Source of the DNA: a virus
DNA: 64,000 bases
Reading direction: 5' to 3' (one strand)
IMG/VR virus record: IMGVR_UViG_3300048928_000639
Coordinates: 1-64,000 of that record
The notes under the pieces are model-generated. The model ran no database searches. It saw only the letters and a program-made list of their open reading frames with translations, and was not told where the DNA came from. Position numbers and translations under genes: made by a program. This document shows positions 750 to 61,648 of this stretch, in pieces (the stretch's first letter is position 1; every line of letters starts with the position of its first letter).

Positions 750-784
750 ATCCTGCCTCAATTAATCTTGAGAGTCAAGATAAA
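750..784 (-). promoter_or_regulatory. Promoter-operator cassette P1
   Basis: Palindrome at 762-784. Read leftwards: TTGACT (773-778 on the plus strand), 17 bp, then CAGGAT at 750-755. The core carries GACTC (a GANTC site). It drives the genes from 742 leftwards. Confidence 0.65.
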
Positions 785-3940: not shown

Positions 3941-3975
3941 AAAGTACGCTAATTAATCTTGAGAGTCAAGATTAA
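3941..3975 (-). promoter_or_regulatory. Promoter-operator cassette P2
   Basis: Palindrome 3953-3975, with both 10-bp arms perfect. Leftwards: TTGACT, 17 bp, TACTTT (3941-3946). GACTC in the core. It heads the holin-endolysin-spanin unit. Confidence 0.7.
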
Positions 3976-16115: not shown

Positions 16116-16167
16116 ACCGTAACAGATTGACTACCCGATGTCAAATTATCTTGAGAGGCAAGATTAA
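16116..16167 (-). promoter_or_regulatory. Promoter-operator cassette P3 (variant)
   Basis: The palindrome (16145-16167) has TTGCCT in place of TTGACT, so GANTC is lost (GAGGC). A separate -35 TTGACA lies just downstream (16139-16144 on the plus strand), 17 bp from TACGGT (16116-16121). Heads the J/fibre unit. Confidence 0.7.
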
Positions 16168-19003: not shown

Positions 19004-19266
19004 CTATCCCTTCGGTGCAGCAGCGCGGCGGAATGCGGCCATGATGTCGGCGGAGGCGGGCGGGGGCGGCGGTTCGGGTGACTCGACGCCGACGGCTGCA
19101 GCAAACTGACCAGCTTGCACAAGGCGGCGCATTTCGATATGTGCGTCGAGGGCGCCTTCAAGCGCAGGGATCGACGTGTTGAGCGTTTGCTGCTCGGTGT
19201 AACCGAGCCACCCCATCCCCGTGTGGAGCAGCCGGTCGTAGTGCTCCGACCAGCCTATCCGTTTCC
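19004..19266 (-). CDS. Tail assembly chaperone, frameshift extension (T-like part)
   Basis: The open frame begins upstream of the nominal ATG at 19216. It is reached from the upstream chaperone by a -1 shift at GGGAAAC (19261-19267) and reads KRIGWSEHYDRLLHTGMGWL, then a helical part and a Pro-rich linker (ESPEPPPPPASAD). As in lambda G/GT, the fusion would be the minor product that recruits tube subunits to the tape measure. Confidence 0.75.
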
Positions 19267-19584
19267 CAAGTCGTCCTTGGGCTCGGTCTGCGCCACGTAG
19301 TCGCGACCGCCATTGGCCAGCCAGTTGACGTAGACCTTCACCGACTCGTACAGGTCGAGCATACCGGCCTTGAACACCGCATCCTCGACGTCCTTGACGG
19401 GCTTGCCGAGCGCGGCGGCGATGACGAAGGTGATTGAGTCCTGATCGATATCCGCAAGGCGCTCATTCGCGGCGCGAAAGCTGCCGAAGTGGCGATTAAT
19501 CTTCTTGGATGCGTCCAGCGTAAACCGGAGCAGGGTGGGCTCTCCGTCGAGGGTGATCTCGACGCCGTCCGTGGATACGTTCAT
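19255..19584 (-). CDS. Tail assembly chaperone (G-like part)
   Basis: 109 aa. MNVSTDGVEITLDGEPTLLR, then helices ASKKINRHFGSFRAANERLA and FVIAAALGKPVKDVEDAVF; these match the gp10-type chaperones of gene transfer agents and HK97-like phages. It lies between tube and tape measure and ends in DDLGNG at the slippery site. First gene after cassette P4, with GGAG upstream of the ATG. Confidence 0.75.
   Translation of the reverse strand: MNVSTDGVEITLDGEPTLLRFTLDASKKINRHFGSFRAANERLADIDQDSITFVIAAALGKPVKDVEDAVFKAGMLDLYESVKVYVNWLANGGRDYVAQTEPKDDLGNG
19261..19267 (-). other. -1 programmed frameshift site GGGAAAC
   Basis: X-XXY-YYZ heptamer (G GGA AAC in the zero frame) placed three codons before the stop of the chaperone gene. 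The -1 frame runs open into 19004. Lambda uses GGGAAAG at the same place. Confidence 0.8.
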
Positions 19585-19614: not shown

Positions 19615-19649
19615 ACCGTAGCGAAATTAATCATGAGAGTCAACATTAA
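19615..19649 (-). promoter_or_regulatory. Promoter-operator cassette P4
   Basis: Palindrome 19627-19649. Leftwards: TTGACT, 17 bp, TACGGT (19615-19620). GACTC core. Drives the chaperone-tape measure-distal tail unit. Confidence 0.7.
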
Positions 19650-22010: not shown

Positions 22011-22044
22011 ATATTACGGAATTTATCGTGAGAGTCAAGATTTA
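22011..22044 (-). promoter_or_regulatory. Promoter-operator cassette P5
   Basis: Palindrome 22022-22044, overlapping the stop codon of the gp10-like gene. Leftwards: TTGACT, 16 bp, TAATAT (22011-22016). GACTC core. Drives the HNH gene, probably as a leaderless message, then the terminator and tube genes. Confidence 0.7.
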
Positions 22045-27328: not shown

Positions 27329-28725
27329 GCGTCAGGTCCGAGTGGCATCGGCGGACCATTGAGCACCACGCTATCCGCCTTGATGCGGTCCAACGTAACT
27401 TCGACGTCCGTGGTCTCAGGCAACACGCCGCGGCGGATAAGCGCCTCGATGTAAGTCTGATTGTCGATCTTGCCGGCAATGACGGCCTGCGTGAGCGGGG
27501 CCAGATCGCCGCGCATGGCAGAGACCCCAAAGTCAGTATTGACCTCGACCTCGCCACCGGCGTCCTCACCAAGCCCCTGGTACTCTGCCATATAGCCCAG
27601 TGACTGCTCCAGCGCATCGCCGAGCGATCGGGCCATCATGGCGAGCGGAGAATTCTCTTTGTCGTTGTCGCGTATTTCACCAGTCGCCGACTGACCGCCG
27701 GGGCCGTCAATCAGAAGCTGCAGGCCGACCGCAGCCATCTGGCGTTCGAGATTGTCCAGATCCTTGTCGCCCGAACTGATGGCGGCACCGCTGTGTTCGA
27801 CGTAACCGAGTTTGGCATTCACGTCCGAATTTCGGATCGCGCTACCCGCTCCGATGACGATCTTATCGTCAGCGCCGCAGCCCGCATAGAACAGGATCGG
27901 CACCCGCGCGACATGGAGGATATTGCGCTGGTCGGACTGCGACTGCCAGTGTGCGGCGTTGATTTCCGCCAGCTTCTCCAGTGGCGGCTCGAACGTCATG
28001 AACCCGGTGCGGTTGATATAGAACGGCACCAGTGTGATTTTGGGCAGGCGAGATGTGCCAGCATCGAACAACTGCCACTCGCCCTTGGCATCCTTGCGCC
28101 ACGTTTCCCACGCGCCGGGGGTGATCACCTTGATCTGTTCGACTTCCGACTCGTTGAAGTCGCCGTCTGGAACGGTGATGCACTCCTTGACGCGGATCTG
28201 CGTCAGGGTTTCGGCGCCGTCAATCATCGTCGATTTCCAGCCCAGCAAATTTTCGAGCGGGATGTAAACGAGAAAAGGACGAAGGCCTGCGTTCTTCTCG
28301 TCAGCGATCGTGGCGGGGGCGCCGTCCTCGCGCACGACAGACGGCGGCAGGTCCACCAGGATGTAGCCGCCGCCGGTGACCATGCCGTCGAGAAACACGT
28401 CGCGGGCGAACACATTGAGATGCCGACCGGTCAAGTCGATATCCTCGGCGAAATCCACCAGTTCCGGCGGCACATCGTCCTTGAGAACGACCGGCTTGGT
28501 GAACACCTTGCCGGTCATGTCGCCGACGGTCTTGGCGAACGCGTTGAACAGCGTGGAACGCCGCAGACGCGCCTGATAGGCGTCGTCCGACTCGGCGTAC
28601 TCTTTCGGCAGGTACTTCTCGCCGGCCTTGCGCATCGCCCGCGTGCCGCCCATGAGCGTGCGCGGCAACTCGGCGCAGTCAATCATGTGCTGCTGCGATT
28701 TGATTACCGTGGAGACATCAGCCAT
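27325..28725 (-). CDS. Portal protein (DUF4055 family)
   Basis: 466 aa. MIDCAELPRTLMGGTRAMRK, KYLPKEYAESDDAYQARLRR, NAFAKTVGDMTGKVFTKPVV and DGMVTGGGYILVDLPPS are hallmark stretches of DUF4055 portals. The C-terminal tunnel-loop/crown region includes ESAVAVG-like helices (LAMMARSLGDALEQSLGYMA). Dodecameric ring at the capsid vertex through which DNA is packaged. Confidence 0.9.
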   Translation of the reverse strand: MADVSTVIKSQQHMIDCAELPRTLMGGTRAMRKAGEKYLPKEYAESDDAYQARLRRSTLFNAFAKTVGDMTGKVFTKPVVLKDDVPPELVDFAEDIDLTGRHLNVFARDVFLDGMVTGGGYILVDLPPSVVREDGAPATIADEKNAGLRPFLVYIPLENLLGWKSTMIDGAETLTQIRVKECITVPDGDFNESEVEQIKVITPGAWETWRKDAKGEWQLFDAGTSRLPKITLVPFYINRTGFMTFEPPLEKLAEINAAHWQSQSDQRNILHVARVPILFYAGCGADDKIVIGAGSAIRNSDVNAKLGYVEHSGAAISSGDKDLDNLERQMAAVGLQLLIDGPGGQSATGEIRDNDKENSPLAMMARSLGDALEQSLGYMAEYQGLGEDAGGEVEVNTDFGVSAMRGDLAPLTQAVIAGKIDNQTYIEALIRRGVLPETTDVEVTLDRIKADSVVLNGPPMPLGPDA

Positions 28726-29981
28726 TAAATGCGAAGCTCCTGGCTGGACGTCGTGCGAGCGCGGCGGACTGATTCGATTTTGTAGCGAATTCCATCGATG
28801 CAGTGATTGTTCTTGTCTTCAAGCTCACTCGTGATAAGGCCCGTTTTCTTGTCGACCTTGTACGAATAGAGCTTGAGTTCATCGATGGTGTGGAAGCAGT
28901 CCGGATGCACAACGATGTCGTATGACTGCAGGAACGTGACGCCTTCTTCGACCGAACCGGGTCCCTTGATGGCCGCGGTCATCTGCGGAAAGCCGTTCCG
29001 CTTCATGTAGCTGATGGTCTCGGGTCGCGCGCTGTCCGCTACAAACGGAACTGTCTGCGCAAGCGATCTCCAGCTGGGATCGCGAGCCTTCGCCTCTGAC
29101 CAATCGGGGTCGAGCTTCTTAAACAGCGCCGGCGTGCGATCGATCTCACAGCCGATCTGCCAAACTTCTCGCCAGATATAGAGCGTTCGCCCGCGAATAA
29201 AGCCGAGCGTGGCCACCGTCGGATCAACCGAGAAGCCCCAGTCGCCGCCGCCAAGGATGACGTCACCGGGCTGACGCTCAAACCGTTCCACTTTCCAGTT
29301 GCGAAAGACCTGCGCCTCGGAATTCTGCCGATAGCCACCGCGCCACACCCAGTTATATTTGTCGGCGTCGCGGAGCTTGTCGCGCTCCATGTCCCGGCGC
29401 AGATCCTCGGGAAACCAGGGGTTGTCCTCGAAATTGACCGTGACCAGTGCGAAATCGGGATCGTTCGCCGCGATGTTGTCGTTGAAGAACTTGTCGACCG
29501 GGTCCGTTGCGAATTCGGGGTTCCAAGAGAACCACTGTTCGGTGCCTGGTGTGCGGAAAGTGGGGATGGCCAGATCAAGCGAACGTTGGGTGAGCGTCTG
29601 CGACTCTTCGTACCAAACCCGGTTAAAGCCCTCTAGCGACTTGATGCTAGCGGCCGTGTGGTTCTGCAGCCCACGAAACACGAACAGCGAATCGTTCGGG
29701 CCGGTGATCTCGCGTTCCGTGATCTTGAAATGCCCACGGACATCGTGCTTGTTGATCTTGTCCTCAAGCAATTGCTTGACTGAGTCCTTGATCGAATTCT
29801 GTACTTCGCGGACGCAGGCGCCGCGCACATGGCCACGAAAACAATCCCGAACAAATCGCTCGGCGAAATAGTGGCTCTTGGCACCGCCGCGCCCGCCTTT
29901 AGCGCCCTTGAATCGCCGTGGGGCCGTAAGTGGGACGAACGCGCGGGGCGTCGAAAGCCGGAATGCTGTATCTGCGATCAT
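28725..29981 (-). CDS. terL: Terminase large subunit
   Basis: 418 aa. ATPase motif KGAKGGRGGAKSHYFAERF (Walker A), Walker B FNRVWYEESQTL, adenine/coupling segment FRTPGTEQWFSWNPE. The nuclease domain has GGGDWGFSVDPT and ADSARPETISYMKRNGF (RuvC-like Asp residues), ending with NNHCIDGIRYKIES. XtmB/terminase_3-type packaging motor. Overlaps terS-like and portal genes. Confidence 0.93.
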   Translation of the reverse strand: MIADTAFRLSTPRAFVPLTAPRRFKGAKGGRGGAKSHYFAERFVRDCFRGHVRGACVREVQNSIKDSVKQLLEDKINKHDVRGHFKITEREITGPNDSLFVFRGLQNHTAASIKSLEGFNRVWYEESQTLTQRSLDLAIPTFRTPGTEQWFSWNPEFATDPVDKFFNDNIAANDPDFALVTVNFEDNPWFPEDLRRDMERDKLRDADKYNWVWRGGYRQNSEAQVFRNWKVERFERQPGDVILGGGDWGFSVDPTVATLGFIRGRTLYIWREVWQIGCEIDRTPALFKKLDPDWSEAKARDPSWRSLAQTVPFVADSARPETISYMKRNGFPQMTAAIKGPGSVEEGVTFLQSYDIVVHPDCFHTIDELKLYSYKVDKKTGLITSELEDKNNHCIDGIRYKIESVRRARTTSSQELRI

Positions 29982-30814: not shown

Positions 30815-30866
30815 TTTTTATCATACGGCTACCCGCTTGTCAACTGATCGTGAGAGACAAGATTAA
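30815..30866 (-). promoter_or_regulatory. Promoter-operator cassette P6 (variant)
   Basis: Palindrome 30844-30866 with TTGTCT instead of TTGACT (GANTC lost, GAGAC). Downstream -35 TTGACA (30838-30843 on the plus strand), 17 bp, TAAAAA (30815-30820). Heads the terminase-head-neck unit. Confidence 0.65.
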
Positions 30867-32388: not shown

Positions 32389-32765
32389 GGCGACACCGGC
32401 GGCGTGGGCAGAGGCATCCAGTGCGATGCATGGTGCACCCGGCACTTTTCGCCGTTCTGCCATTCACCAAGGTTGTATCGGGCGACATCGGCGCACGAAA
32501 ACTTCGTGTTGACGCCTGTGTTTTCCCAAACGAGAACCCACGTACCGTCCTTCGGCGCCGTCTCGATCGGCTGCCATTTCGGGTCTCGACGCATCGCCAG
32601 TGCGTGCCAATCGCGCGCCAGTTTCACAAAGACAAACCCGCCGCAATTGATGCTGATGGCGCCGCTTACGGTGACGTGAACTGAATCGGCATAGGCTGCC
32701 CCAGCACCTTCATCGGGACCACGCCATAGTTCGCGGTCAGTGTTCTGGGCTGCTTGGTCGCTCAT
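32385..32765 (-). CDS. DUF551 domain protein
   Basis: 126 aa. The C-terminal half has WQPIETAPKDGTWVLVWENT ... HHASHWMPLPTPP, the DUF551 pattern (W.PI.TAP.DG..VL.w ... THWMPLP.PP) widespread in phages. The N-terminal half (SVHVTVSGAISINCGGFVFV) is a separate small module. Function unknown. Confidence 0.75.
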   Translation of the reverse strand: MSDQAAQNTDRELWRGPDEGAGAAYADSVHVTVSGAISINCGGFVFVKLARDWHALAMRRDPKWQPIETAPKDGTWVLVWENTGVNTKFSCADVARYNLGEWQNGEKCRVHHASHWMPLPTPPVSP

Positions 32766-32989
32766 GACGCCACCCGCGCGCCCGGCGGCACACCGCCGAC
32801 CATATTGCTCCGAACGCCATACGAGCCGCCGACCGTGCCGGGCAGTTCGTACCGCTCAACCCGCACCTTGGCGTAGCCGCGCTTGACCCAGTAGTCGGTC
32901 AGGTGGCGGCAGAGCGCGTCGGCGCCGCTGCGGGTGGTGAGGTCGGCACCGGCGAGGGGGTGCTTGCGGTCGCGTTTGAATTTGGTCAC
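32762..32989 (-). CDS. Hypothetical protein (75 aa)
   Basis: GTG start at 32989 with GGAG upstream, first gene after cassette P7. Basic N-terminus MTKFKRDRKHPLAGADLTTR, then LCRHLTDYWVKRGYAKVRVE and a Gly-rich C-terminus. No family recognised. Confidence 0.55.
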   Translation of the reverse strand: MTKFKRDRKHPLAGADLTTRSGADALCRHLTDYWVKRGYAKVRVERYELPGTVGGSYGVRSNMVGGVPPGARVAS

Positions 32990-33012: not shown

Positions 33013-33047
33013 ACGGTGCCTTAATTAATCTTGAGAGTCAAGATAAA
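33013..33047 (-). promoter_or_regulatory. Promoter-operator cassette P7
   Basis: Palindrome 33025-33047. Leftwards: TTGACT, 17 bp, CACCGT (33013-33018). GACTC core. Drives genes 32989 to 30863. Confidence 0.65.
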
Positions 33048-33547: not shown

Positions 33548-33582
33548 ACCCTAATGACTGGAATCATGAGAGTCAACATTAA
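33548..33582 (-). promoter_or_regulatory. Promoter-operator cassette P8
   Basis: Palindrome 33560-33582, with the downstream arm degenerate. Leftwards: TTGACT, 17 bp, TAGGGT (33548-33553). GACTC core. Confidence 0.7.
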
Positions 33583-36191: not shown

Positions 36192-36226
36192 ACAATGGCG
36201 AATGCAACCGTGAGAGTCAACATTAA
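36192..36226 (-). promoter_or_regulatory. Promoter-operator cassette P9
   Basis: Palindrome 36204-36226, with a weak downstream arm. Leftwards: TTGACT, 17 bp, CATTGT (36192-36197). GACTC core. Heads the nuclease-helicase unit. Confidence 0.6.
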
Positions 36227-36503: not shown

Positions 36504-36823
36504 GCCGCAATCCTTTCCTGTACTGAGACATTAACCAACATCGCCGCGGTTGGCTTCACCCGCCCCAACGCAACGGCAGCCTCTTTGCGCCGCACCTCGG
36601 ATCGCATAGCGAAGTCGATATGCAACTTGAACCGCTGCATCTTCTGCCCGAACCCCTTGGGCATCGGTCCGACCCAACTGGACTTCGGCAGCCACTGGTC
36701 GCCGTTGACCGCGACAGGGCGCCAGCGAAACGTCTTGGTCACGCGACCCGCCTTGACGCGGACGATCACATGCCATTCGTGTGCATCCAGGATGATACTT
36801 GGGGAGCGGTAGAGGGTTGTCAT
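36500..36823 (-). CDS. Hypothetical protein (107 aa)
   Basis: ATG at 36823 overlaps the upstream stop. MTTLYRSPSIILDAHEWHVI, VRVKAGRVTKTFRWRPVAVN and LPKSSWVGPMPKGFGQKMQR, ending in a helical basic C-terminus. Beta-rich N-terminal half. No named family. Confidence 0.55.
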   Translation of the reverse strand: MTTLYRSPSIILDAHEWHVIVRVKAGRVTKTFRWRPVAVNGDQWLPKSSWVGPMPKGFGQKMQRFKLHIDFAMRSEVRRKEAAVALGRVKPTAAMLVNVSVQERIAA

Positions 36824-37089
36824 GACTTCGGCTCCGCGCGTACCGCAAAAGCTCGGACTGAACCGAACACCACCGCGGTAGGTGGCGTCATGGTTGAATG
36901 GCATCGACGCGGGTCGCACCAAGTTTGCGTGCCAATGTAGTCGATAAACTCTCGATGCTTTTGCGGGACTGGTGCGCCTTCGGGAAGAATACTCCAAGGC
37001 AATCCAGCGTTCGGCCCAAAACGATCAGGCTTCGGCGGGTCGATGCGAACCCCCGCGTCAGTGAAACCGTAACGCTTCGTGGCACTCAC
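36820..37089 (-). CDS. Hypothetical protein (89 aa)
   Basis: GTG at 37089 overlaps the stop of the 31-aa gene (GTGA). Reads MSATKRYGFTDAGVRIDPPK then PVPQKHREFIDYIGTQTWCD, with two Cys. No recognised domain. Confidence 0.5.
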   Translation of the reverse strand: MSATKRYGFTDAGVRIDPPKPDRFGPNAGLPWSILPEGAPVPQKHREFIDYIGTQTWCDPRRCHSTMTPPTAVVFGSVRAFAVRAEPKS

Positions 37090-37206: not shown

Positions 37207-37240
37207 ACCGTATCGAATTAATCATGAGAGTCAAGATAAA
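37207..37240 (-). promoter_or_regulatory. Promoter-operator cassette P10
   Basis: Palindrome 37218-37240. Leftwards: TTGACT, 16 bp, TACGGT (37207-37212). GACTC core; the upstream gene's TGA stop lies within the TTGA of the arm. Confidence 0.7.
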
Positions 37241-39092: not shown

Positions 39093-39126
39093 ACCGTATC
39101 GAACTAATCGTGAGAGTCAACAATAA
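39093..39126 (-). promoter_or_regulatory. Promoter-operator cassette P11
   Basis: Palindrome 39104-39126. Leftwards: TTGACT, 16 bp, TACGGT (39093-39098). GACTC core. Confidence 0.7.
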
Positions 39127-42187: not shown

Positions 42188-42221
42188 ACCGTATCTAATT
42201 AATCTTGAGAGTCAAGATAAA
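42188..42221 (-). promoter_or_regulatory. Promoter-operator cassette P12
   Basis: Palindrome 42199-42221. Leftwards: TTGACT, 16 bp, TACGGT (42188-42193). GACTC core. Drives the 13 tightly coupled small genes down to 39127. Confidence 0.7.
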
Positions 42222-43036: not shown

Positions 43037-43070
43037 ACCATAGCAATCGAATCGTGAGAGTCAACATTAA
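43037..43070 (-). promoter_or_regulatory. Promoter-operator cassette P13
   Basis: Palindrome 43048-43070. Leftwards: TTGACT, 16 bp, TATGGT (43037-43042). GACTC core. Confidence 0.7.
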
Positions 43071-45408: not shown

Positions 45409-45443
45409 ACACTGCAAGAATTAATCGTGAGAGTCAACATAAA
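45409..45443 (-). promoter_or_regulatory. Promoter-operator cassette P14
   Basis: Palindrome 45421-45443. Leftwards: TTGACT, 17 bp, CAGTGT (45409-45414). GACTC core. Drives the C5 methyltransferase. Confidence 0.65.
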
Positions 45444-45446
45444 AGG

Positions 45447-47615
45447 TCAGTAAGGAGGCGGGCTGGGCGGCAATACCACGCCCGGTGACGTTGGCAGCGG
45501 CACCGCGTTCCCGCCACGGATGATGACGCGCGGCCGGTTGTCGGCGGTCTTGCTGACCAGGTAGCGCACGACGTGCTCAATGTGCTTTGGCAGTATCTCG
45601 GGGCCGCGGTACCAACCACGCGTCCGCGTGCCACCGATGTACGGCTGGACTCGACGAAACCCCATCTTCTTGAGGATCGCGTCGCGGGCACCGTGGACAT
45701 TGCGCCAGTTTGAATAGTCGCAAAGGTCGACGATATCGTCGACCGACACGAACGCCTGCTTAGTGTGCTCGGTCTCGCCGAACCATGACCATAGCCGGCT
45801 TTCCATATCGCTGACCGAGCGGGCAGCCTCCTGGTGCGTCGCAGCGATCGCCCACACTTCACGCGGGATGTCAAAACTTTCCCCGCGCGTATGGCGCGCT
45901 GCCGCCTCACCGACCAACTGAAACACGGCGCTGCGCAGGCCGGGCAGGTCTACCTCCTGGTCGATTCTGATAGGTAAAAATCGGCGATTGCCGGATGGAT
46001 CCTCCAGCGGCGTGTCGTCGTTGGTCGAGCCGCAGAAGATGTTTCGCCGCGGTCGCTCGGTCACGGCGCGGGCATAGGCCGTGCGTCCGGCGTCGGTGGT
46101 GCGGGAAATCATCGCCTTGACATGGTTCACATTGGTATTGCCGCGCATGCCCATTTCGCTGATCTCAACCAGCATCTTGCCGGCCAGCGACAGGACCAGT
46201 TCCTTGGACGCATCACCGAGCAGGATTGAGTCAGTAAAGTATTCCGGTCGCAACGCCAGCACCGCGAGCATTGTCGACTTACCGGTGCCTTGCGGACCGA
46301 AGAAAATTGGCATCGTGTCGAACTTCACGCCAGGCGAACGAACCCGCGAGACCATGCCGCCGACCAGGCTACGCCCGACCGCGCTGTGGTACTGGTCGTT
46401 GGGGCAGGAACAATACCGGGATAGCCAAGAGTCGAGCCTTGCAGTCCCGTCCCAGTCCTTCTCCAGCGTCGCCAGCAGTTCGACGGCGGGATCGACCGGG
46501 TTGGCGTGGGCAATCGCCAACAACGTCTCCCACAGGAACTCCTTGCCGGGCCGAAAGCGCGTCTTGGTCCGGTTGGCGCGGGTGCGGAGCTTGGCCACGA
46601 CAGTGTCGTCAATGTAGGTCCAGTCCGTCCAGCGCAGGTCGAGGTCGATGCCGCCCTGGATTTCCATGCGTTCCAGCCATGCGTTCCAGCGCAGCGACAG
46701 TCCGAGGATGCCGAGCAGGACGGTCACGTTGTCGCTGTTGTCCGACTGCGGTTCCTGATTCTTGTCGTACTCCCACTTGTCGTGCGTAACGGTGATGCGC
46801 TCGACCTTTTCCTGCAGGTTCGCCGCGGCCAGCTTGATCTTACTGGTCGGCAGCGGATGCCCGGACAGGGTGATACGCCGGCACACGGCATCGAACACGT
46901 CGGCGTGCAGCAGGTTCAGCACGGCGAGCACGTCCACCACGGCGGCCGGCTTGAACTTCTGCGGCGGCTCGGACAGCGCGATCACGCGCGAGATGCATTC
47001 CAGCATGTCGGCGTACAGGCCGTGCCCGGACATGGCGGCGGGCAGCGTGGGGAATTCATCGGCGGCGGGCCGCGCCGGCGCGTTGGTCGGTGCTGCGAGG
47101 AAGTCGCGGAGGACAGGCGCGGCGAGACGCGTCAGTTCCTCCTGCCCGGCGAGCATCGGCATGCCGCCTTGCAGCGTAGCACCAGCAGCAGCCGCGATCG
47201 CCGCAACGCCTTTGAACATATCGACGCCAACTTTTCGCAGCGACCCTTTCCAGCCAAGGTCGTGAGCGCGTTTGAACAGCGTCCCCATCGTCTGGGAATT
47301 TTCGGTCGCCTCACTGGCGAAGGTATCCCATTTAGAAAGGGCGGTGTCATCTACGGTCTGATCATGACAGATGACCGCCCACAGATCCAAGCCGTTGTCG
47401 CCGAACTCGACTTTCGCGATCATGCCAGCCGATACCCAGTCCATATAGCTGGGGAAGCCGTCATTATCGAACAGCCATTGATATAACGCCTTGGCTTCGT
47501 CGATATCGTAGACGCCGACCTTACCAGCCACTGCAGCGCTACGCGTGGTTGAGCGAATACAATGCGCAACGAGCGCCGCCGGTGCCGGATAACTGTGTGT
47601 CGTCACGTCAACCAT
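45447..47615 (-). CDS. VirE-type replicative helicase / primase C-terminal part
   Basis: 722 aa. N-terminal PriCT-like region (EAKALYQWLFDNDGFPSYMD, then LGWKGSLRKVG), then the virulence-associated E ATPase: HANPVDPAVELLATLEKDWDG, FFGPQGTGKSTML (Walker A), ILLGDASKELVLSLAGKMLV with EISEMG (Walker B), IFCGSTNDDTPLEDPSGNRR (sensor/Arg). The C-terminus is Pro-rich and ends PPSPPPY. It acts with the prim-pol encoded just upstream; in many phages both are one polypeptide. Confidence 0.85.
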   Translation of the reverse strand: MVDVTTHSYPAPAALVAHCIRSTTRSAAVAGKVGVYDIDEAKALYQWLFDNDGFPSYMDWVSAGMIAKVEFGDNGLDLWAVICHDQTVDDTALSKWDTFASEATENSQTMGTLFKRAHDLGWKGSLRKVGVDMFKGVAAIAAAAGATLQGGMPMLAGQEELTRLAAPVLRDFLAAPTNAPARPAADEFPTLPAAMSGHGLYADMLECISRVIALSEPPQKFKPAAVVDVLAVLNLLHADVFDAVCRRITLSGHPLPTSKIKLAAANLQEKVERITVTHDKWEYDKNQEPQSDNSDNVTVLLGILGLSLRWNAWLERMEIQGGIDLDLRWTDWTYIDDTVVAKLRTRANRTKTRFRPGKEFLWETLLAIAHANPVDPAVELLATLEKDWDGTARLDSWLSRYCSCPNDQYHSAVGRSLVGGMVSRVRSPGVKFDTMPIFFGPQGTGKSTMLAVLALRPEYFTDSILLGDASKELVLSLAGKMLVEISEMGMRGNTNVNHVKAMISRTTDAGRTAYARAVTERPRRNIFCGSTNDDTPLEDPSGNRRFLPIRIDQEVDLPGLRSAVFQLVGEAAARHTRGESFDIPREVWAIAATHQEAARSVSDMESRLWSWFGETEHTKQAFVSVDDIVDLCDYSNWRNVHGARDAILKKMGFRRVQPYIGGTRTRGWYRGPEILPKHIEHVVRYLVSKTADNRPRVIIRGGNAVPLPTSPGVVLPPSPPPY

Positions 47616-48073
47616 GCGTAGGCATTTCCTTCAACATGGGACGGAGGAATCAGAACGAAGCCATTGCCTGCGCGGATGTCGATGATGCCGGGCACCAGCG
47701 GCGGCTGCTTCAACAGCGCGGCGTCTGTGTCCGTGGGAACGTCAAAGTACAGATGCCAGCCGGTGGATGGTGTTTGCACATGGGGCGCATAGATCGGCTG
47801 CCCGGCGGCGGTGCACCAGTCGCTCCAAGCCTTCCAGCCAGCTTCGCGGCCGACTTTCTTGACGTCAATATCCACTACTATTTTATTGCTTGGTCCGGCG
47901 ACCATAATCCAGTTGCAGCCGGGAAACTGCGCGGCCCACTCCGCCCACCGCTTGGGGTCGCGTGACCAATCGTGCGCGAAACTGGCGATCAGGCCAACAG
48001 GCGATTTTCCGCCGGCGGGAATCGGACAGAGGGCGGCACCCATGTCGGCATAACGGGCAAGCGGCTCAAACAT
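47603..48073 (-). CDS. Bifunctional primase-polymerase (prim-pol) domain protein
   Basis: 156 aa. FEPLARYADMGAALCPIPAG, GKSPVGLIASFAHDWSRDPK, NWIMVAGPSNKIVVDIDVKK (the D-x-D catalytic pair), QTPSTGWHLYFDVP (conserved S-x-H) and IDIRAGNGFVLIPPSHVEGN. Archaeo-eukaryotic primase fold. The stop overlaps the helicase start by 13 nt in another frame, so the fused primase-helicase seen elsewhere is split here. Confidence 0.85.
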   Translation of the reverse strand: MFEPLARYADMGAALCPIPAGGKSPVGLIASFAHDWSRDPKRWAEWAAQFPGCNWIMVAGPSNKIVVDIDVKKVGREAGWKAWSDWCTAAGQPIYAPHVQTPSTGWHLYFDVPTDTDAALLKQPPLVPGIIDIRAGNGFVLIPPSHVEGNAYAWLT

Positions 48074-49637
48074 GGGCCAACCGAGCCTGGAGCGCCTGCG
48101 CGGCGGGGAGCAGGGCGGCGGCGGTCCGGAAGGCTGACAGGTTTAACCGAACGGGACCGAACCGAGCGCGGATGTCAGCGACGTATTCCGCCTCGCGCTC
48201 GCACAGCACAACACAGAAGCCGCGGTTGGTCGCTGCGACGGCAGTGGTGCCAGATCCGCCAAAGGGGTCCAGGATCGTCCCGCCGGGCGGCGTGATGAGC
48301 GTGCACAGCCACTCCATGAGGCTGATCTTCTTGACGGTCGGGTGCTTGCTGCCGTTGCGGTCTGCCTTGGAGGCTTTTGCGCTGTAGAAGAATCGGGCGG
48401 CGGAGCCGGAGTCGTTGCGGGCGGCGTGTGACAACGGCGCGGCCATGTCGCCGTAGCACGTTTTGCTCGGGCGGGAGCGACCAGTCGCGTTTAGGTCACC
48501 CTGCTGTCCTTTGCTATCAGGAAACGCCCCGACCACTTCATCCGAGCCGTCATGCACCACGTTGGCGGGCCAGCGGCCTTGCACTGTCACTTCCGCACCA
48601 GGCATTCCAACGCGATCCTCTGCAACGCGGATCATGCTTGCGTTCGTGGTCGTTCCTTTGGGAGCGTACGTGCGTTCGTCTGTTCCTACTCTGCTCGCAT
48701 CAATATTCAGCGCGCCGGTGCGCCAGCGCAGCACATTGGCTGCGACCGTGCCTTCCGACAGCGGCTTGCGCGCCAGAACGATCGGCTCGAATGCGGGCTT
48801 GAGCGCAGTGCCCCATCCTTCCCATTCCGCTGCTTCGGGGGTGGCGGGTGCGGTGATGTCCACAACACGGCGAGCCGAAGCGTCGTAATCATCAGCATGC
48901 GCCGTAACCGCGAGACGAACTTCGGAGGTGTCGCGCATTTCCTTGCTGCCGACGACTTCGCGCTCAGCGGCCTCGAATGACTCGTCGAATTTGTCGCCAA
49001 TTTTGAGTGCTGCTTTGATGCGCGGCCATTCATCTCGCGTGGGCATACGACCGGTTTCGAACCACATGAAGCCACCGCCGCCAAGTGACTCGGTTGCGCC
49101 AATCAACCCGACTCGACGAGCGGCTTCGGTTTGTGAAATGGCTAATTTGGTGCGCGCTGCTTTGATTGCGGCACCAAGCAATTCAAGCGATTTCCAGTCT
49201 TTACGCTTATCAATCGCCTTGCTGACATCGAGCGACTTGGGAAAACCCGTCCCATAAAGCCACATCAAGGAGTCACGGATTTCGAACCCGGCGTCCTCGA
49301 TCGCGCAGGCCATGCGGTGATAGCCGCGCGACGAGCCGAAAGCGACGACGTGGCCGCCGGGTTTCAAGACGCGCAGCACTTCCGCCCACAACGCAGGCTG
49401 GAAAGCGATGTCGCCGCCATCCCACGCTTTGCCCATGAAGCCCGTCGAGATACGCGAGCGGCCCGCCGGCGAATTGAGGTTGAGCGATGCCGCGCCGGTG
49501 CCGCCTTTCTTGTCCGTGGTTAAATGGTACGGCGGATCGGTGACCACACTGTCCACGGAATTGTCGGGCATGGCGCGGAGGGCGTCGCGGCAATCGGCGT
49601 GAAAAAGGGTCGCCGTGGGGGACAGGGTGATACGCAT
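48066..49637 (-). CDS. Adenine/N4-cytosine DNA methyltransferase with inserted HTH
   Basis: 523 aa from the ATG at 49637 (a TTG at 49646 overlapping the upstream stop is the alternative). Motif IV VVTDPPYHLTTDKKGG, target-side region FMGKAWDGGDIAFQPALWAE, HVVAFGSSRGYHRMACAIED; C-terminal FxGxG motif PPGGTILDPFGGSGTTAVAA. Between ~155 and 230 there is an inserted XRE-like HTH (AIKAARTKLAISQTEAARRV). Sequence specificity cannot be read; it could be GANTC or any other site. Typical phage DNA modification enzyme. Confidence 0.88.
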   Translation of the reverse strand: MRITLSPTATLFHADCRDALRAMPDNSVDSVVTDPPYHLTTDKKGGTGAASLNLNSPAGRSRISTGFMGKAWDGGDIAFQPALWAEVLRVLKPGGHVVAFGSSRGYHRMACAIEDAGFEIRDSLMWLYGTGFPKSLDVSKAIDKRKDWKSLELLGAAIKAARTKLAISQTEAARRVGLIGATESLGGGGFMWFETGRMPTRDEWPRIKAALKIGDKFDESFEAAEREVVGSKEMRDTSEVRLAVTAHADDYDASARRVVDITAPATPEAAEWEGWGTALKPAFEPIVLARKPLSEGTVAANVLRWRTGALNIDASRVGTDERTYAPKGTTTNASMIRVAEDRVGMPGAEVTVQGRWPANVVHDGSDEVVGAFPDSKGQQGDLNATGRSRPSKTCYGDMAAPLSHAARNDSGSAARFFYSAKASKADRNGSKHPTVKKISLMEWLCTLITPPGGTILDPFGGSGTTAVAATNRGFCVVLCEREAEYVADIRARFGPVRLNLSAFRTAAALLPAAQALQARLAHV

Positions 49638-49865: not shown

Positions 49866-49901
49866 AATATAGGCCGCATTAATCTTGAGAGTCAAGATTA
49901 A
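49866..49901 (-). promoter_or_regulatory. Promoter-operator cassette P15
   Basis: Palindrome 49879-49901, both arms perfect. Leftwards: TTGACT, 18 bp, TATATT (49866-49871). GACTC core. Drives the methyltransferase-primase-helicase unit. Confidence 0.7.
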
Positions 49902-49993: not shown

Positions 49994-50419
49994 TTAGCGC
50001 TTCTTGGGCGCGAGCTTCGGTGGCGACAGGGCAGGAGTCCACATGGTGCCATCACGGTCCAGTTCAGCATAAAGACGCAAATGCATTCCATCGCGGACAT
50101 CGACGCCTTTTTCGCCAAGTTCTTTGACGATGCGAGCGCGTTCACGCGCGTGGTCAAGGGTGCAATATTCCGGACCAGGTGTTGCGGTGCCGATTTTCAT
50201 TTCGGGTTTCTGATCGGTCAACGCCAGTTTGTAGGTTACGCGATACGCAATCTCGCCCGTCTTATGAATGACGAAACGCAGTCCGAACACCCGGTCATCC
50301 GAGTAGGTGACCTTGGTCGTAGGGTTCCGTGATGTCTGCAAATCTTCTAGGGTCTTAAACAGGAATGCTTCGGAGAAATGGGATTCTTCACTTGGCGGGA
50401 GTTTCTTACGTCGAGCCAT
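49994..50419 (-). CDS. Integrase arm-type DNA-binding domain-like protein without catalytic domain
   Basis: 141 aa from the ATG at 50419 with TTGGAGG upstream. The core VTYSDDRVFGLRFVIHKTGE, IAYRVTYKLALTDQKPEMKI, GTATPGPEYCTLDHARERAR and IVKELGEKGVDVRDG follows the DUF4102/arm-binding domain of P4-type tyrosine integrases (D..v.GLg.rV...G...f...y.......lG......sl..AR..A......G.D). The catalytic Arg-His-Arg-Tyr domain is absent. It is the first gene left of the divergent switch and its own promoter has a special copy of the palindrome, so it is the best candidate for the factor that reads the dispersed operators (inference). Confidence 0.65.
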   Translation of the reverse strand: MARRKKLPPSEESHFSEAFLFKTLEDLQTSRNPTTKVTYSDDRVFGLRFVIHKTGEIAYRVTYKLALTDQKPEMKIGTATPGPEYCTLDHARERARIVKELGEKGVDVRDGMHLRLYAELDRDGTMWTPALSPPKLAPKKR

Positions 50420-50453
50420 CTTGGCCTCCAATACTATATGGGTTCTGCTGTGG

Positions 50454-50490
50454 TACCTAGATGGCTAAAAACCTTGACTGTCAACATAAA
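50454..50490 (-). promoter_or_regulatory. Promoter-operator cassette P16 (switch variant)
   Basis: Palindrome 50468-50490 with a symmetric core TTGAC-A-GTCAA. Leftwards it has a consensus -35 TTGACA; the -10 is weak (CTAGGT or TAGGTA at 50454-50460). No GANTC. Leader with GGAGG leads to the ATG at 50419. Confidence 0.55.
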
Positions 50491-50564
50491 GTTTAGTGCA
50501 GTGCGATTTATAGTTGACATATACCCGAGTACCGAGCGCTGATTCGTTTGCTGCTCGCGGTGAA

Positions 50565-50598
50565 TTATTCTTGACTCTCATAATTACATCGGTAGGGT
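50565..50598 (+). promoter_or_regulatory. Promoter-operator cassette P17 (rightward)
   Basis: Palindrome 50565-50587. Rightwards: TTGACT (50571-50576), 16 bp, TAGGGT (50593-50598). GACTC core. Main rightward promoter for genes from 50644. Confidence 0.7.
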
Positions 50599-50643
50599 GA
50601 CCCTCGTTGCAACAAGCCCGGACGGGCAGATGAGGGACTACAC

Positions 50644-51369
50644 ATGACATTCAAGTGGAAGATTATTCGTCCGACGCCGACCGCTGCCGCGGGCGAGTTG
50701 GGAGTGACCGGTGTCGGCATCGAATGCGAGACCGGCCAGATGGGCGCGGCGGACTTCGTCGAAGCGATCCAGCGCGAGAACAATGCGTTCGTTACCATCT
50801 TCGGCTCGGCGATTCTCGCCGGTGTGATCGAAACGGCATCGGAAGGCTCGGACGATGAGCCCGAAGTGGCGGCAGCGCCGGGTGAGCCGGAAAAGCCGAA
50901 GCGAACGCGCGGCCCGAACAAGTCCAAGCAGGTGGAAGCGGTCGCACCGGCGCCGATGCCGGTCCCCGAAGCGGCTCCGCCCGCTGCTCCAGTAGTCGAC
51001 GATGGTATCCCCGAGGCGCTGCGGCGCATCGCTCCCCCGGCGCCTGTCGCCCCCGCTGCGGCTGCACCGCTCCCGCCACCTTTGATGCCCGCCGCTCCGC
51101 CGATCGCTCCCACCGCGCCGACGCCGCCTCCAGCCCCTCCTGCCGCACCGCCGACCGGCGTGCTCGCGGAGAAGATCATCGCCGACCTGAACGTCCGCAA
51201 GAGCAACCCGCTCGTGACCGACGGCGGGCAGGCCCTGGTCGACTGGCTCGCAGCGCCGCCGCTGTCGCTGGTGGTCAAGGGCGCGACCTACGATCAGGCG
51301 ATGGACGTGCTGCGCATGACCACAGACGACAAGCTGGCGGCTGCCGCGGCGGTGTTGAAGATCACGTAA
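50644..51369 (+). CDS. Pro/Ala-rich linker protein with basic patch (241 aa)
   Basis: First rightward gene. N-terminal globular part (MTFKWKIIRPTPTAAAGELG, GADFVEAIQ-like helix, AFVTIFGSAILAGVIETASE), a basic patch EKPKRTRGPNKSKQ resembling an AT-hook, a long Pro/Ala linker (~100-180) and a C-terminal helical domain (VLAEKIIADLNVRKSNPLVT, AMDVLRMTTDDKLAAAAAVL). Possibly a DNA-associated early protein. No known family. Confidence 0.6.
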   Translation: MTFKWKIIRPTPTAAAGELGVTGVGIECETGQMGAADFVEAIQRENNAFVTIFGSAILAGVIETASEGSDDEPEVAAAPGEPEKPKRTRGPNKSKQVEAVAPAPMPVPEAAPPAAPVVDDGIPEALRRIAPPAPVAPAAAAPLPPPLMPAAPPIAPTAPTPPPAPPAAPPTGVLAEKIIADLNVRKSNPLVTDGGQALVDWLAAPPLSLVVKGATYDQAMDVLRMTTDDKLAAAAAVLKIT

Positions 51370-54981: not shown

Positions 54982-55689
54982 ATGACAGACGCAATTTCGG
55001 TACTCGACCACGGCTTCGTCCGACTGGTCGACTCGATGGGCGGCGACCTTTCCGTGGCGCGAGCCGCCCGCGTCTCATATGACGCCGCGTGGCGGGCAGG
55101 GGAGGATGCAGGCAGCGACGCGAAGCTGATCAACTATCTCTGGAAAAACCGTCACACCACGCCGTTCGAGGCGGTGACGTTCACATTCGAAATCAAGGCG
55201 CCAATCTTCGTCTTTCGCCAATGGCACCGGCATCGCACCTGGTCCTTCAATGAACTGTCGGCGCGCTATCGCGAACTGCCCGAGGAATTTTACGTGCCGG
55301 CGCCTGAAGCAATCGGCGTCCAGTCCAAGGACAACAAGCAGGGGCGGGACGTGAGCGGCGAGGTCCGCGACATGCTGGTACCCTCCATGATCGACGCGTC
55401 GTGTCGCGCCGCCTTCGCAGCCTACCGAACCTTATTGGAGCATGACGTTCCTCGTGAACTGGCACGGTCGGTGCTGCCCGTGGCAACCTACAGCCACATG
55501 TTCGCAACGGTCGATCTGCTGAACCTGCTCAAGTTCCTGACCTTGCGCTGCGATAGCCATGCCCAGATGGAAATCCGGGTCTACGCCGACGCGATGCGCG
55601 ACTTGATCCGCCCCGTGGTGCCGGTCTGTCTGGCCGCTTGGTCCGCTTCTGTCGGAATTAATGTTGACTCTCACGATTCGAAAGCGTAG
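54982..55689 (+). CDS. thyX: Flavin-dependent thymidylate synthase ThyX
   Basis: 235 aa from the ATG at 54982 with AAGGACAG upstream (a TTG at 54958 overlapping the previous stop is an alternative). ARAARVSYDAAW, NRHTTPFEAVTFTFEIKAPI, then the ThyX signature RHRTWSFNELSARY, and LLNLLKFLTLRCDSHAQMEI with the terminal catalytic Arg/His region. It makes dTMP from dUMP with FAD and methylene-THF. The last codons (GINVDSHDSKA) are also the P18 operator. Confidence 0.95.
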   Translation: MTDAISVLDHGFVRLVDSMGGDLSVARAARVSYDAAWRAGEDAGSDAKLINYLWKNRHTTPFEAVTFTFEIKAPIFVFRQWHRHRTWSFNELSARYRELPEEFYVPAPEAIGVQSKDNKQGRDVSGEVRDMLVPSMIDASCRAAFAAYRTLLEHDVPRELARSVLPVATYSHMFATVDLLNLLKFLTLRCDSHAQMEIRVYADAMRDLIRPVVPVCLAAWSASVGINVDSHDSKA

Positions 55690-57580: not shown

Positions 57581-59628
57581 TCGCTCGCGCAACACTCGAC
57601 GTTGAGACCCGCAGCCAGTGTGACATCACACGCGGCAACGACGTCTACCTGTCCCATCACACGACCGAACTGATCTGCGCCGATCTGGAAACGGATATCT
57701 GGAAAGCGTCCGCCGCGTTCATTCCGTCCTGCGACGGACGCGACGCGCTGGAAGCGAAAATGCGCGAAGCCGGCCTGAACGTCGTCCCACCCGAAACGAT
57801 GGTGGCGATGGTCAAAGCGACGCAGACCCTGGTCGCGCACAACTTCGCGTTTGAACAAGGCGCGATGCAGAAACTCGCCGCCGCGTCGATCGCCAACGAC
57901 CGTTGGGTGTGCACGATGTCGCGCGCGATGCGGATGGGGCTGCCCGGCGGTCTCGGCAATCTCTGCGCGGTGCTCGGGTTCGGTGACGCTGGCAAGGATT
58001 CCGAGGGCAACCGCCTGATGAAGCAGGTGTCCAAGCCGCGTCCCACCTGGTCCAAGAAACAGACCGGGCCGATGTGGTTCGATGATGCGGACCGGCTCGC
58101 ACGCATCGCGCTCTACTGCGCCCGCGACGTCACCGCCACCATGCGCGTCGACAAGATGCTGCCAGAACTGGAGCCGGAAGAACGCGACATCTGGTTGCAC
58201 ATTCACGACCTCAACCTTCGTGGCATCCCGGTTGACGTCGAGATGATCCACGGCGCCATTGCCATGTCTGAGGAAGCGATATCGGATGTGACGGACCGCA
58301 TCCGAGCCTACACCGGCGGCATGGTGCAGTCACTGAAAGCACCGGGGCAACTGGTCGCTTGGGCCGCGCGCTACGGCTACGACCTGCCATCCTGGACAAA
58401 AGAGACCGTCGCCGGCGCGCTGCAGGATCCGTCATGCCCCGAGCCGGTGCGTATCGTGGCGCTGGCCCGTCAGGAAGCGAGCCGGGGCAGCGTGGCCAAG
58501 TTCGAGAAGGCCGCAGAGATGGTGTCGACCGACGGCACGCTGAAGCACCAACTTCTCTACGCCGGCACGTCCACGCTACGACTGGCGGGCAGGGGCGTGC
58601 AGCCGCTCAACCTGCCACGCCCCAAGCTTATGGCAGACCAATCCGCGGCGAAAGAGGACATCGCCGCCGGGCGCCCGATTCGAGTGCCGTCGTGGAAACT
58701 GGACTACGACCCCGAGCGGGCGCTTGCGGCGATCCGCGCCGGCGACCTCGCCGCGCTCCGAAACATGGGCGACTCCGAGGAAATCCTGTCCGACAATATC
58801 CGCTCCATGATTGCCGCGCCGGCCGGCAAGATGATCGTCTCGCCGGATCTGTCCGCCATTGAGGCGCGCGGCGTGTTCTGGCTGGTCAAGTGCGAGAAGG
58901 CGTTGGACGTCATTCGCAAATCGGACCGCGGCGAAGGTCCAGACATTTACTGTCAGTTGGCGTCCACGATGTTCGGCTTCCCGGTCATCAAGAAAAAGCA
59001 TCCCGAGGAGCGCCAGTACGGCAAGGTCGGCATTCTCCAGTGTGGCTATGGGTCAGGTGCATCGCGCGTGGCCATGGCCAACAAGATCGAGGAGGAGATG
59101 GCCTACAAGATCGTGCAGACCTACCGCTCGGACTACCCCGAGGTGACGGCGGCGTGGCGCGATCTGGAGCGATCGGCGATTGAGGCGATCCGCAACCCCG
59201 GCTTCATGATCCCATGCTGCCACGACCGTGTGCACTTCATCTACGAGGCAGGCTGGCTGCGCATGCGGCGCCCCTCGGGGACGTGGATGTATCTGCCCGA
59301 CGCCGGCATCGACTTCGAAGGGCGGCTCTACTACCACGCATGGATCAAGGGCGCATGGCGCGAGGAGTCGATCTGGGGCGGCGTTCTGATCAACTTCGTC
59401 GTCCAAGGGTTTTGCCGTGAGATCATGTTTGCTGCGGAAATGCGCCTGTCCCGCGATCCGCGCTTCGATCTGTTCCTGCAGTGCTACGATTCGCTGACGA
59501 GCATGGTGCCGGCCGACCAGTCGAAAGAACTGTGCGAGGTGATGATCCGCGAGATGACGACGCCGGAGCCATGGTGCCAAGACTTCCCGCTCGCGGCGGA
59601 AGGCAAGCCCAAGGACCGTTACTCGTGA
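57577..59628 (+). CDS. Family A DNA polymerase with 3'-5' exonuclease domain
   Basis: 683 aa. Exonuclease motifs TLDVETRSQC (D-x-E), LVAHNFAFEQ (N..F[DE]) and ALYCARDVTATM (Y...D). Polymerase motif A MIVSPDLSAIEARGVFWLVK, O-helix/motif B ERQYGKVGILQCGYGSG, motif C FLQCYDSLTSMV. Motif C has Tyr-Asp-Ser instead of His-Asp-Glu; the catalytic Asp is kept. Phage replicase. Starts at the DUF2493 remnant (TGATG). Confidence 0.92.
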   Translation: MIARATLDVETRSQCDITRGNDVYLSHHTTELICADLETDIWKASAAFIPSCDGRDALEAKMREAGLNVVPPETMVAMVKATQTLVAHNFAFEQGAMQKLAAASIANDRWVCTMSRAMRMGLPGGLGNLCAVLGFGDAGKDSEGNRLMKQVSKPRPTWSKKQTGPMWFDDADRLARIALYCARDVTATMRVDKMLPELEPEERDIWLHIHDLNLRGIPVDVEMIHGAIAMSEEAISDVTDRIRAYTGGMVQSLKAPGQLVAWAARYGYDLPSWTKETVAGALQDPSCPEPVRIVALARQEASRGSVAKFEKAAEMVSTDGTLKHQLLYAGTSTLRLAGRGVQPLNLPRPKLMADQSAAKEDIAAGRPIRVPSWKLDYDPERALAAIRAGDLAALRNMGDSEEILSDNIRSMIAAPAGKMIVSPDLSAIEARGVFWLVKCEKALDVIRKSDRGEGPDIYCQLASTMFGFPVIKKKHPEERQYGKVGILQCGYGSGASRVAMANKIEEEMAYKIVQTYRSDYPEVTAAWRDLERSAIEAIRNPGFMIPCCHDRVHFIYEAGWLRMRRPSGTWMYLPDAGIDFEGRLYYHAWIKGAWREESIWGGVLINFVVQGFCREIMFAAEMRLSRDPRFDLFLQCYDSLTSMVPADQSKELCEVMIREMTTPEPWCQDFPLAAEGKPKDRYS

Positions 59629-59891
59629 CAGAGACGCGCGTGGTCAACATGTCGCGCGCCAAGTTCGACTTGCGCATCGATCGACGGACGCAGTGGGGCA
59701 ACCCGTTCCATATCGGTTTTCATGGCAGCCGCGACGAAGTCATCGCCAAGTACGAGACGTACATTCGCCAGCGCCCGAACCTGTTAGCGGACCTTTCTTT
59801 TTTGAAGGGCAAGCGCCTCGGTTGCCACTGTAAGCCGCTCGCGTGTCACGGCGATGTGCTGGTGCGCTTGATCTCAGAGTATTGCCCATGA
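59625..59891 (+). CDS. DUF4326 protein
   Basis: 88 aa, GTG start overlapping the polymerase stop (GTGA). RVVNMSRAKFDLRIDRRTQW, GNPFHIGFHGSRDEVIAKYE, LSFLKGKRLGCHCKPLACHG is the DUF4326 signature (V.N......D..IDR.T.WGNPF ... L.GK.LGCWC.P..CHGD.L). Widespread in phages; biochemical role unknown. Confidence 0.85.
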   Translation: MTETRVVNMSRAKFDLRIDRRTQWGNPFHIGFHGSRDEVIAKYETYIRQRPNLLADLSFLKGKRLGCHCKPLACHGDVLVRLISEYCP

Positions 59892-60618: not shown

Positions 60619-60626
60619 CGCTTAAA

Positions 60627-60661
60627 AGAATGTTGACTCTCACGATTAATTAATGCAAGTT
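60627..60661 (+). promoter_or_regulatory. Promoter-operator cassette P19
   Basis: Palindrome 60627-60649. Rightwards: TTGACT (60633-60638); 17 bp further CAAGTT, a poor -10. GACTC core. Upstream, TTAA-N7-TTGA (60622-60636) is one mismatch from a CtrA box. Drives the ctrA unit. Confidence 0.55.
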
Positions 60662-60832: not shown

Positions 60833-61648
60833 ATGCGCATCCTCGTAGTCGAGCCGGACGCCACTGTCGCTCAGTCGATCGAAATGATGCTGCGGTCCGA
60901 ACGCTTCAATGTCACCGTGGTTAGCACCGGTGCGGAAGCCTTCGAACTCGCCACGCTCTACGACTACAACCTGATCACGATGGCACTCGATCTGCCGGAT
61001 ATGTCGGGCTACGACGTCATCAAGCAATTGCGTCAAACCCGCTGCAATACGCCAATCCTGATCTGCTCTGGCCTCGCCGGGATCGAGGACAAGGTCAAGG
61101 GTCTCGGTATTGGTGCCGACGACTATCTGACCAAGCCTTTCCACAAGGACGAGTTGGTCGCACGTATCCACGCGATCGTGCGTCGCTCCAAGGGGCTTGC
61201 GCAGAACGTCGTCACTGTCGGCGACGTCGTTGTCAATTTCAGCAACCGCACCGTTCATGTGGCCGGTACTGACGCAGGTCTGACCGGCAAAGAGTACCAG
61301 ATGCTGGAGCTTATGGCGCTCCGCAAAGGTGCGACGATCACCAAAGAGATGTTTCTGTCGCACCTGTATGGCGGCATGAATGACCCCGATATCAAAATCA
61401 TCGACGTGTTCATCTGCAAGCTGCGCAAGAAGCTGCCAGCGGGAACCGTTGAGACGATCTGGGGTAGGGGCTACGTGCTGCGCGATCCGGAGGGCGCCGA
61501 GCAGGGATCCGGTTCGCTCGCATCAGAACTGTCGCAACTGGTCAACAGCCCGCCATGGCGCGTCGGCAAAGGGGGCAGTCTGGTCGCGCACGATAAGGCC
61601 AAGATGGCGCGGGTTTCGTCGCCGCCGTTGGCTCCGGTGCTGCCGTGA
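60833..61648 (+). CDS. ctrA: CtrA-family response regulator lacking the phosphoacceptor Asp
   Basis: 271 aa, aligning end to end with Caulobacter CtrA (231 aa). The OmpR-type DNA-binding half is almost unchanged ([60 protein letters not shown]), as is [20 protein letters not shown]. The receiver is altered: residue 51, Asp in CtrA (LILLDLNLPDMSG), is Ala ([13 protein letters not shown]), and Asp8 of the acidic pocket is Pro (VEPDAT). Lys of the KPFHK motif is kept. The C-terminus carries ~40 extra residues ([17 protein letters not shown] ...) and lacks the Ala-Ala end used by ClpXP. Predicted to bind TTAA-N7-TTAA boxes without phosphorylation. Confidence 0.93.

Follow-up and report, generated by a model that had tools for sequence, protein, structure and literature searches.

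The arm-only protein at the divergent switch

The window, a 64,000-nucleotide stretch of an IMG/VR virus record of 68,044 bp whose 4 kb beyond the window were also read, contains a divergent switch with two copies of a repeated element (Table 1). Leftward, the first gene encodes a 141-aa protein, with an ATG start and GGAGG ahead of the start codon. Rightward, the first gene is ORF241, for which matches in Pfam and PHROG were sought and none found.

The sole Pfam match of the 141-aa protein is PF13356 (Arm-DNA-bind_3; residues 32-109, E=5.1e-8), at 33.4 bits against a gathering cut-off of 27. The core-binding domain and the PF00589 catalytic domain (R-H-R-Y) are both absent, and as P4-type tyrosine integrases are defined by these, the protein is not one of them. 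An earlier note on this DNA had placed an integrase arm domain with no catalytic domain as the first gene left of the switch, and it was right on both counts. The tyrosine integrase of the window phage is a separate gene, at 66977-68044 of the record. It is adjoined by a small HTH_17-like protein (record 66748-68044; L008:6748-8044); both have homologues in the relative G006 and form a probable excisionase-integrase pair.

The note had also proposed structure prediction as a check, and the predicted fold agrees with it. The AF2 model, run on an alignment of 11 arm-only sequences (pLDDT 84.8, pTM 0.76), has strands at residues 47-52, 57-62 and 73-78 and a helix at 88-103. Its best three Foldseek matches in the PDB are solved integrase arm domains, namely 3ju0 (prob 1.00, E=3e-3), 3jtz and 3rmp, and a profile search recovers 3ju0 at E=3.6e-6. 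By a profile score above the gathering cut-off and a modelled fold of a three-stranded sheet plus helix, the protein is a member of PF13356. Among other profile sets, NCBIfam gave an integrase-domain model and PHROGs gave phrog_3423, of unknown function. A likeness to integrase arm domains is also known from the AP2 domains of plants. One match of the fold search, Alteromonas phage R7M, was dropped because it belongs to an unrelated genus.

Single-sequence IMG/VR scans with the arm protein and with the VapE primase, and an exact motif scan, returned no matches. Relatives were gathered via the large terminase (28725-29981; 80 IMG/VR loci) and then by alignments of neighbouring early genes. Three of the terminase loci (G004, G006 and G007) encode an arm-only protein with 38-40% identity over the matched part, and the early-gene alignments added the carriers G032, G033, G035, G036, G037 and G038. 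The comparison set, with gene calls from the analysis's own gene finder, is therefore ten phages, the window phage (G000) and nine IMG/VR relatives, with 11 arm-only proteins; G035, which is also the phage without a CtrA-like regulator, has two in tandem (58858-59669; L169:19058-19869). The nine relatives have the same switch, and their arm proteins are 34-52% identical to that of the window. PF13356 is the sole Pfam family that any of the 11 proteins matches, and all of them match it; they have in common an N-terminal helix and a C-terminal tail, with G111, R115, L116, E119, G124 and W127 invariant; these shared parts make them a family of their own rather than a broken integrase. Searches of cultured phages gave only full integrases or insignificant matches, and no arm relatives were found in plasmids or in Genome_contigs.

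Table 1. Features of the window, and site families of the ten phages (a family has no single position).
Feature	Position	Strand	Basis or remark
Arm-only protein (141 aa), candidate master repressor	49994..50419	-	PF13356, AF2 model, Foldseek, orthologues
Divergent switch region, 224 bp, two element copies	50420..50643		arrangement kept in 10/10 phages
ORF241, first rightward gene	50644..51369	+	faces arm gene in 10/10 phages
Variant element over arm gene's own promoter	50467..50490		TTGACAGTCAA on minus strand; similar second copies in most relatives
Element over rightward early promoter	50564..50587	+	TTGACT, 16 nt, TAGGGT region
Element copy, leftward promoter	761..784	-	motif and EM search
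Element copy, leftward promoter	3952..3975	-	motif and EM search
Element copy, leftward	16144..16167	-	motif and EM search
Element copy, leftward promoter before 19255-19584	19626..19649	-	motif and EM search
Element copy, leftward	22021..22044	-	motif and EM search
Element copy, leftward	30843..30866	-	motif and EM search
Element copy, leftward promoter before 32762-32989	33024..33047	-	motif and EM search
Element copy, leftward promoter	33559..33582	-	motif and EM search
Element copy, leftward promoter	36203..36226	-	motif and EM search
Element copy, leftward promoter	37217..37240	-	motif and EM search
Element copy, leftward promoter	39103..39126	-	motif and EM search
Element copy, leftward promoter	42198..42221	-	motif and EM search
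Element copy, leftward promoter	43047..43070	-	motif and EM search
Element copy, leftward promoter before C5 methylase	45420..45443	-	motif and EM search
Element copy, leftward promoter upstream of N6/N4 methylase	49878..49901	-	motif and EM search
Element copy, rightward promoter before ssDNA-binding protein	55657..55680	+	motif and EM search
Element copy, rightward, before CtrA-like regulator	60626..60649	+	motif and EM search
Site family G000 (window phage)			ATCTTGACTCTCAaGATTAA
Site family G004			GGTTGACAATAAACC
Site family G006			ATGTTGACaaTcAACAT
Site family G007			GTTGACAGTAAACG
Site family G032			GTTGACAGTTcACA
Site family G033 and G037			TGTTGACTTTTTGCAAAT
Site family G035			CGTTGACAAAC
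Site family G036			GTTGACTtTCCGTATAAACG
Site family G038			CGTTGACATACAACGTT

Promoter elements in the window phage and its relatives

The element family of the window phage, TTAAT(C/G)TTGACTCTCA(A/C/T)GATTAA, has about 20 genome-wide copies, which point leftward (minus strand) to the left of the switch and rightward (plus strand) to its right. An EM search over the record gathered 20 copies; TTGACTCTCA occurs 17 times in the genome against 0.08 expected, and the window matrix has 26 matches above 14 bits in the record versus 0-1 in shuffles. TTGACT is a -35 box, with TAnnnT 16-18 nt further on in 12 of the 20 copies versus 2% at control positions, and conservation runs from this box well into the spacer. 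Since sigma70 does not read the promoter spacer, something else must read the element. GANTC, the CcrM site, overlaps the -35 in 17 of the 20 window elements and is missing from most relatives' sites, so methylation control, if any, would be peculiar to the window phage; GANTC/CcrM was ruled out as a general mechanism on the same ground, and the GANTC of the earlier note does not hold as a general feature of the sites.

The distinct palindrome copy that the note had described over the arm gene's own promoter is real. Its core at 50474-50484 reads TTGACTGTCAA on the plus strand and TTGACAGTCAA on the minus strand (50484-50474), with a consensus -35 and without GANTC. Against the window motif this copy scores 22.6 bits rightward and 10.6 bits leftward, and the leftward -10 of the window arm promoter is poor (TCTAGG at 17 nt), a weakness that counts against the explanation favoured below. 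A strong element is present at the promoter toward ORF241 in the switch of all ten phages, and in most of them a second copy lies near or over the arm promoter; the switch of G035 has a clear leftward copy of 19.6 bits.

De novo k-mer and EM analysis, phage by phage, yielded the site families, in all of which TTGAC is constant and the downstream half is phage-specific. A correctly spaced TAnnnT accompanies 122 of the 196 elements from the ten phages. The gene at 19255-19584 has orthologues in G007, G032 and G036, each preceded by its own phage's element. Cross-scanning of the matrices against the genomes gave a strong diagonal preference, and at orthologous promoters the own-phage matrix gave a better fit than that of the partner phage for 293 of 296 elements (G033/G037 pair excluded), a figure that is partly so by construction, the matrices being built from the same elements, and that mainly shows the families to be distinct. 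A genome-wide site family was sought in eight arm-less terminase relatives (37-57 kb), which are more distant than the arm-carrying ones, and none was found. One more genome, G003, has G007-like sites and is a 33-kb fragment without the early region expected to hold the arm gene.

The palindromic character proposed for the site stands for G000, G004, G006, G007 and G038 and fails for G033/G037, G035 and G036, which rules out a universal palindrome. Judged from symmetry, two protomers may occupy some sites, and at the non-palindromic sites of G033, G035 and G036 a single monomer, or else an asymmetric dimer, may be enough. Many elements in G033 (L163-L166), G037 (L174-L178), G036 and G038 have only 34-35 nt from the -35 to the start codon (7 of 21 elements in G033), a spacing that implies leaderless mRNAs.

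Co-divergence of proteins and sites

Just eight protein families are universal in the set of ten: the arm protein, ORF241, DUF2800, ssDNA-binding protein, VapE primase, helicase, terminase and an exonuclease with a possible N-terminal helix-turn-helix. The downstream half-site diverges in step with the arm protein, with a Mantel r=0.68 (p=0.0002) over ten genomes that offer few independent contrasts and in a statistic that ignores phage kinship. The correlation persists when the near-identical G037 is left out (r=0.56, p=0.0012), when arm starts are corrected to full length (0.62, p=0.0003; without G037 0.50, p=0.0033) and over four column ranges. Across the full set of phages DUF2800 (r=0.47) correlates as well, and so does the exonuclease (r=0.46), but both values rest on the G033/G037 pair; without G037 every other universal family tested is non-significant, including the exonuclease (r=0.26, p=0.10). 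In the motif region upstream of the -35, the arm signal is lost after G037 removal (r=0.11). The nearest motif belongs to the phage with the nearest arm protein in 7 of 10 cases, as compared with 6 of 10 for VapE and 0 of 10 for the terminase; the linkage of the arm gene to VapE counts against the favoured explanation.

What looks like a natural swap of arm protein and motif against terminase is seen among the relatives. G033 and G037 have arm proteins 95% identical, a motif distance of 0.06 and terminases only 58% identical, while the terminases of G033, G035 and G036 are 84-85% identical, their arm proteins 36-48% identical and their motif distances 0.38-0.53. Mapping of specificity to single residues was given up as too weak (mean r 0.20 for sheet columns vs 0.07-0.08 elsewhere). 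Taken with the co-occurrence of protein and sites and with the conserved switch, these sequence comparisons support the arm protein as a candidate operator-reader, as the earlier note had put forward.

Regulation of the CtrA type would have a response regulator wherever the sites are, varying with them. Instead, the CtrA-like regulator is found in nine of the ten phages and is missing from G035, which has sites; its recognition region is nearly invariant and its Mantel r is -0.13, which together make it unlikely as the common reader. In the window it is encoded at 60833-61648 on the plus strand (PF00072 + PF00486), with an element copy ahead, and a diverged form of ~205 aa occurs in G032, G033 and G036; such a phage protein could reset the host cell cycle.

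A putative repressor and its known counterparts

Computation establishes the fold family of the protein, the site family and its promoter context, the conserved switch, and the co-occurrence and co-divergence of protein and sites. The arm-only protein is probably a sequence-specific master transcription regulator, and most likely a repressor. It would bind at about 20 host sigma70-type promoters, in each case over the -35 box and the upstream part of the spacer, and keep RNA polymerase off by occluding both; such a site is in a repressor position, which favours repression with autoregulation. Binding at the two switch sites would silence both the rightward early promoter and that of the arm gene itself, giving a lysogeny-type or a timing switch. 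The invariant half-site would be the -35 itself, and the variable downstream half would select which phage's protein binds, each lineage thereby forming its own specificity (immunity-like) group. Tyrosine integrase matches in eight of the ten phages, seven of them above the family cut-off, suit a lysogeny repressor. A strict-threshold search of 782 alphaproteobacterial genomes turned up no prophage, so that lysogeny, like binding, repression and autoregulation by the arm protein, is what we infer.

The arm protein might read the sites and yet activate, recruiting RNA polymerase to a phage-specific promoter set. The sites are promoters, all transcription units seem to have one, and the co-divergence is silent on the sign of regulation. 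Activation nevertheless seems unlikely, as the site covers a near-consensus -35 (TTGACT/TTGACA, spaced by 16-18 nt) together with sequence downstream of it, whereas activators usually bind upstream or at the -35 edge and near-consensus promoters need little help. It is rather improbable that the reader is another protein (the phage CtrA-like regulator, host CtrA/CcrM or the exonuclease helix-turn-helix) and that the arm protein serves recombination or packaging. Neither phage candidate follows the sites in the tests above, however widespread the CtrA-like regulator and the exonuclease are, and a host factor, for all the GANTC and the TTAA at both ends of the window element, cannot account for phage-specific motifs that follow a phage protein; most of the other phages' sites, besides, have no GANTC. 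Scarcely credible is the reading that the repeats are no more than a strong promoter consensus, homogenised over the genome, which sigma70 reads without any dedicated regulator: although every copy includes a -35 box and repeated promoters are common in phages, the conserved half falls within the spacer, varies from phage to phage at orthologous promoters and changes along with the arm protein, and the arm-less relatives have no such site families.

For a repressor of this kind, the functionally nearest known system would be, by analogy, the repressor of cluster A mycobacteriophages (L5, TipsytheTRex) with its stoperators, which has >20 oriented sites and a motif that varies from one phage to another (PMC9283540, PMC6550527). 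In both, one small phage protein is paired with genome-wide sites oriented with transcription, and the motif differs between related phages together with the (putative) repressor; many oriented genome-wide sites and a motif diverging with the protein were found in the ten arm phages. Stoperators, however, also lie outside promoters and stop elongation, whereas most sites here overlap promoters. The cluster A repressor has a helix-turn-helix and a second HTH-variant domain in place of the integrase arm beta-sheet, so the arm protein, which is no helix-turn-helix homologue of L5 gp71, is not a member by homology.

The P4-type integrases KplE1 IntS and P4 Int bind sites that overlap their own promoter and thereby repress it (PMC2951348), which makes the evolutionary step to an arm-only regulator plausible. 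They share the arm-domain family and binding sites that overlap and dampen a promoter, but are complete integrases whose targets are att sites and one promoter, whereas the arm protein has no core-binding or catalytic domain, has extra conserved N- and C-terminal parts and is matched by genome-wide sites. The new use of the fold claimed in the earlier note is thus new in scale and context, self-repressing integrases being already known. Lambda-type CI/Cro systems resemble the switch in their divergent promoters, operators beside the regulator gene, heteroimmunity logic and autoregulation (which here would be presumed), and differ in that the arm protein has no helix-turn-helix or peptidase domain and its sites are spread over the genome instead of lying in operator clusters.

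A full-text search of open-licence papers found no earlier description of arm-only or DUF4102 regulators. There is perhaps an even chance that the protein represents an undescribed class of immunity repressor, in which a catalysis-free integrase arm would silence the genome via 15-24 promoter-overlapping operators, with heteroimmune groups set by the spacer half-site. The master repressor of a phage is usually a helix-turn-helix protein, and annotation would list the phages of this lineage as having no repressor. If the repressor reading is true, a second, beta-sheet fold does the master-repressor job, one can see a way in which a recombination factor may turn into a transcription factor, and ten cognate protein/site pairs are ready for testing the evolution of immunity specificity. 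PF13356 proteins without PF00589 beside divergent promoters could expose more such regulators.

Three further observations concern other genes. The primase/VapE of the window (45447-48073, minus strand) is in two ORFs (47603-48073 and 45447-47531) and in a single ORF in most relatives, which may reflect a genuine split of the gene, a frameshift or an error in sequencing. The N6/N4 DNA methylase (48066-49637, minus strand) has an apparent inserted XRE-type helix-turn-helix, a weak match (HTH_31, residues 153-206, E=0.11). At 36614-36990 of G007 (L134) a 15-nt unit, ACCTCCGTAGTGCGG, in places with GGCGG for CGTAG, recurs ~14 times and is apparently a coding pentapeptide-type repeat.
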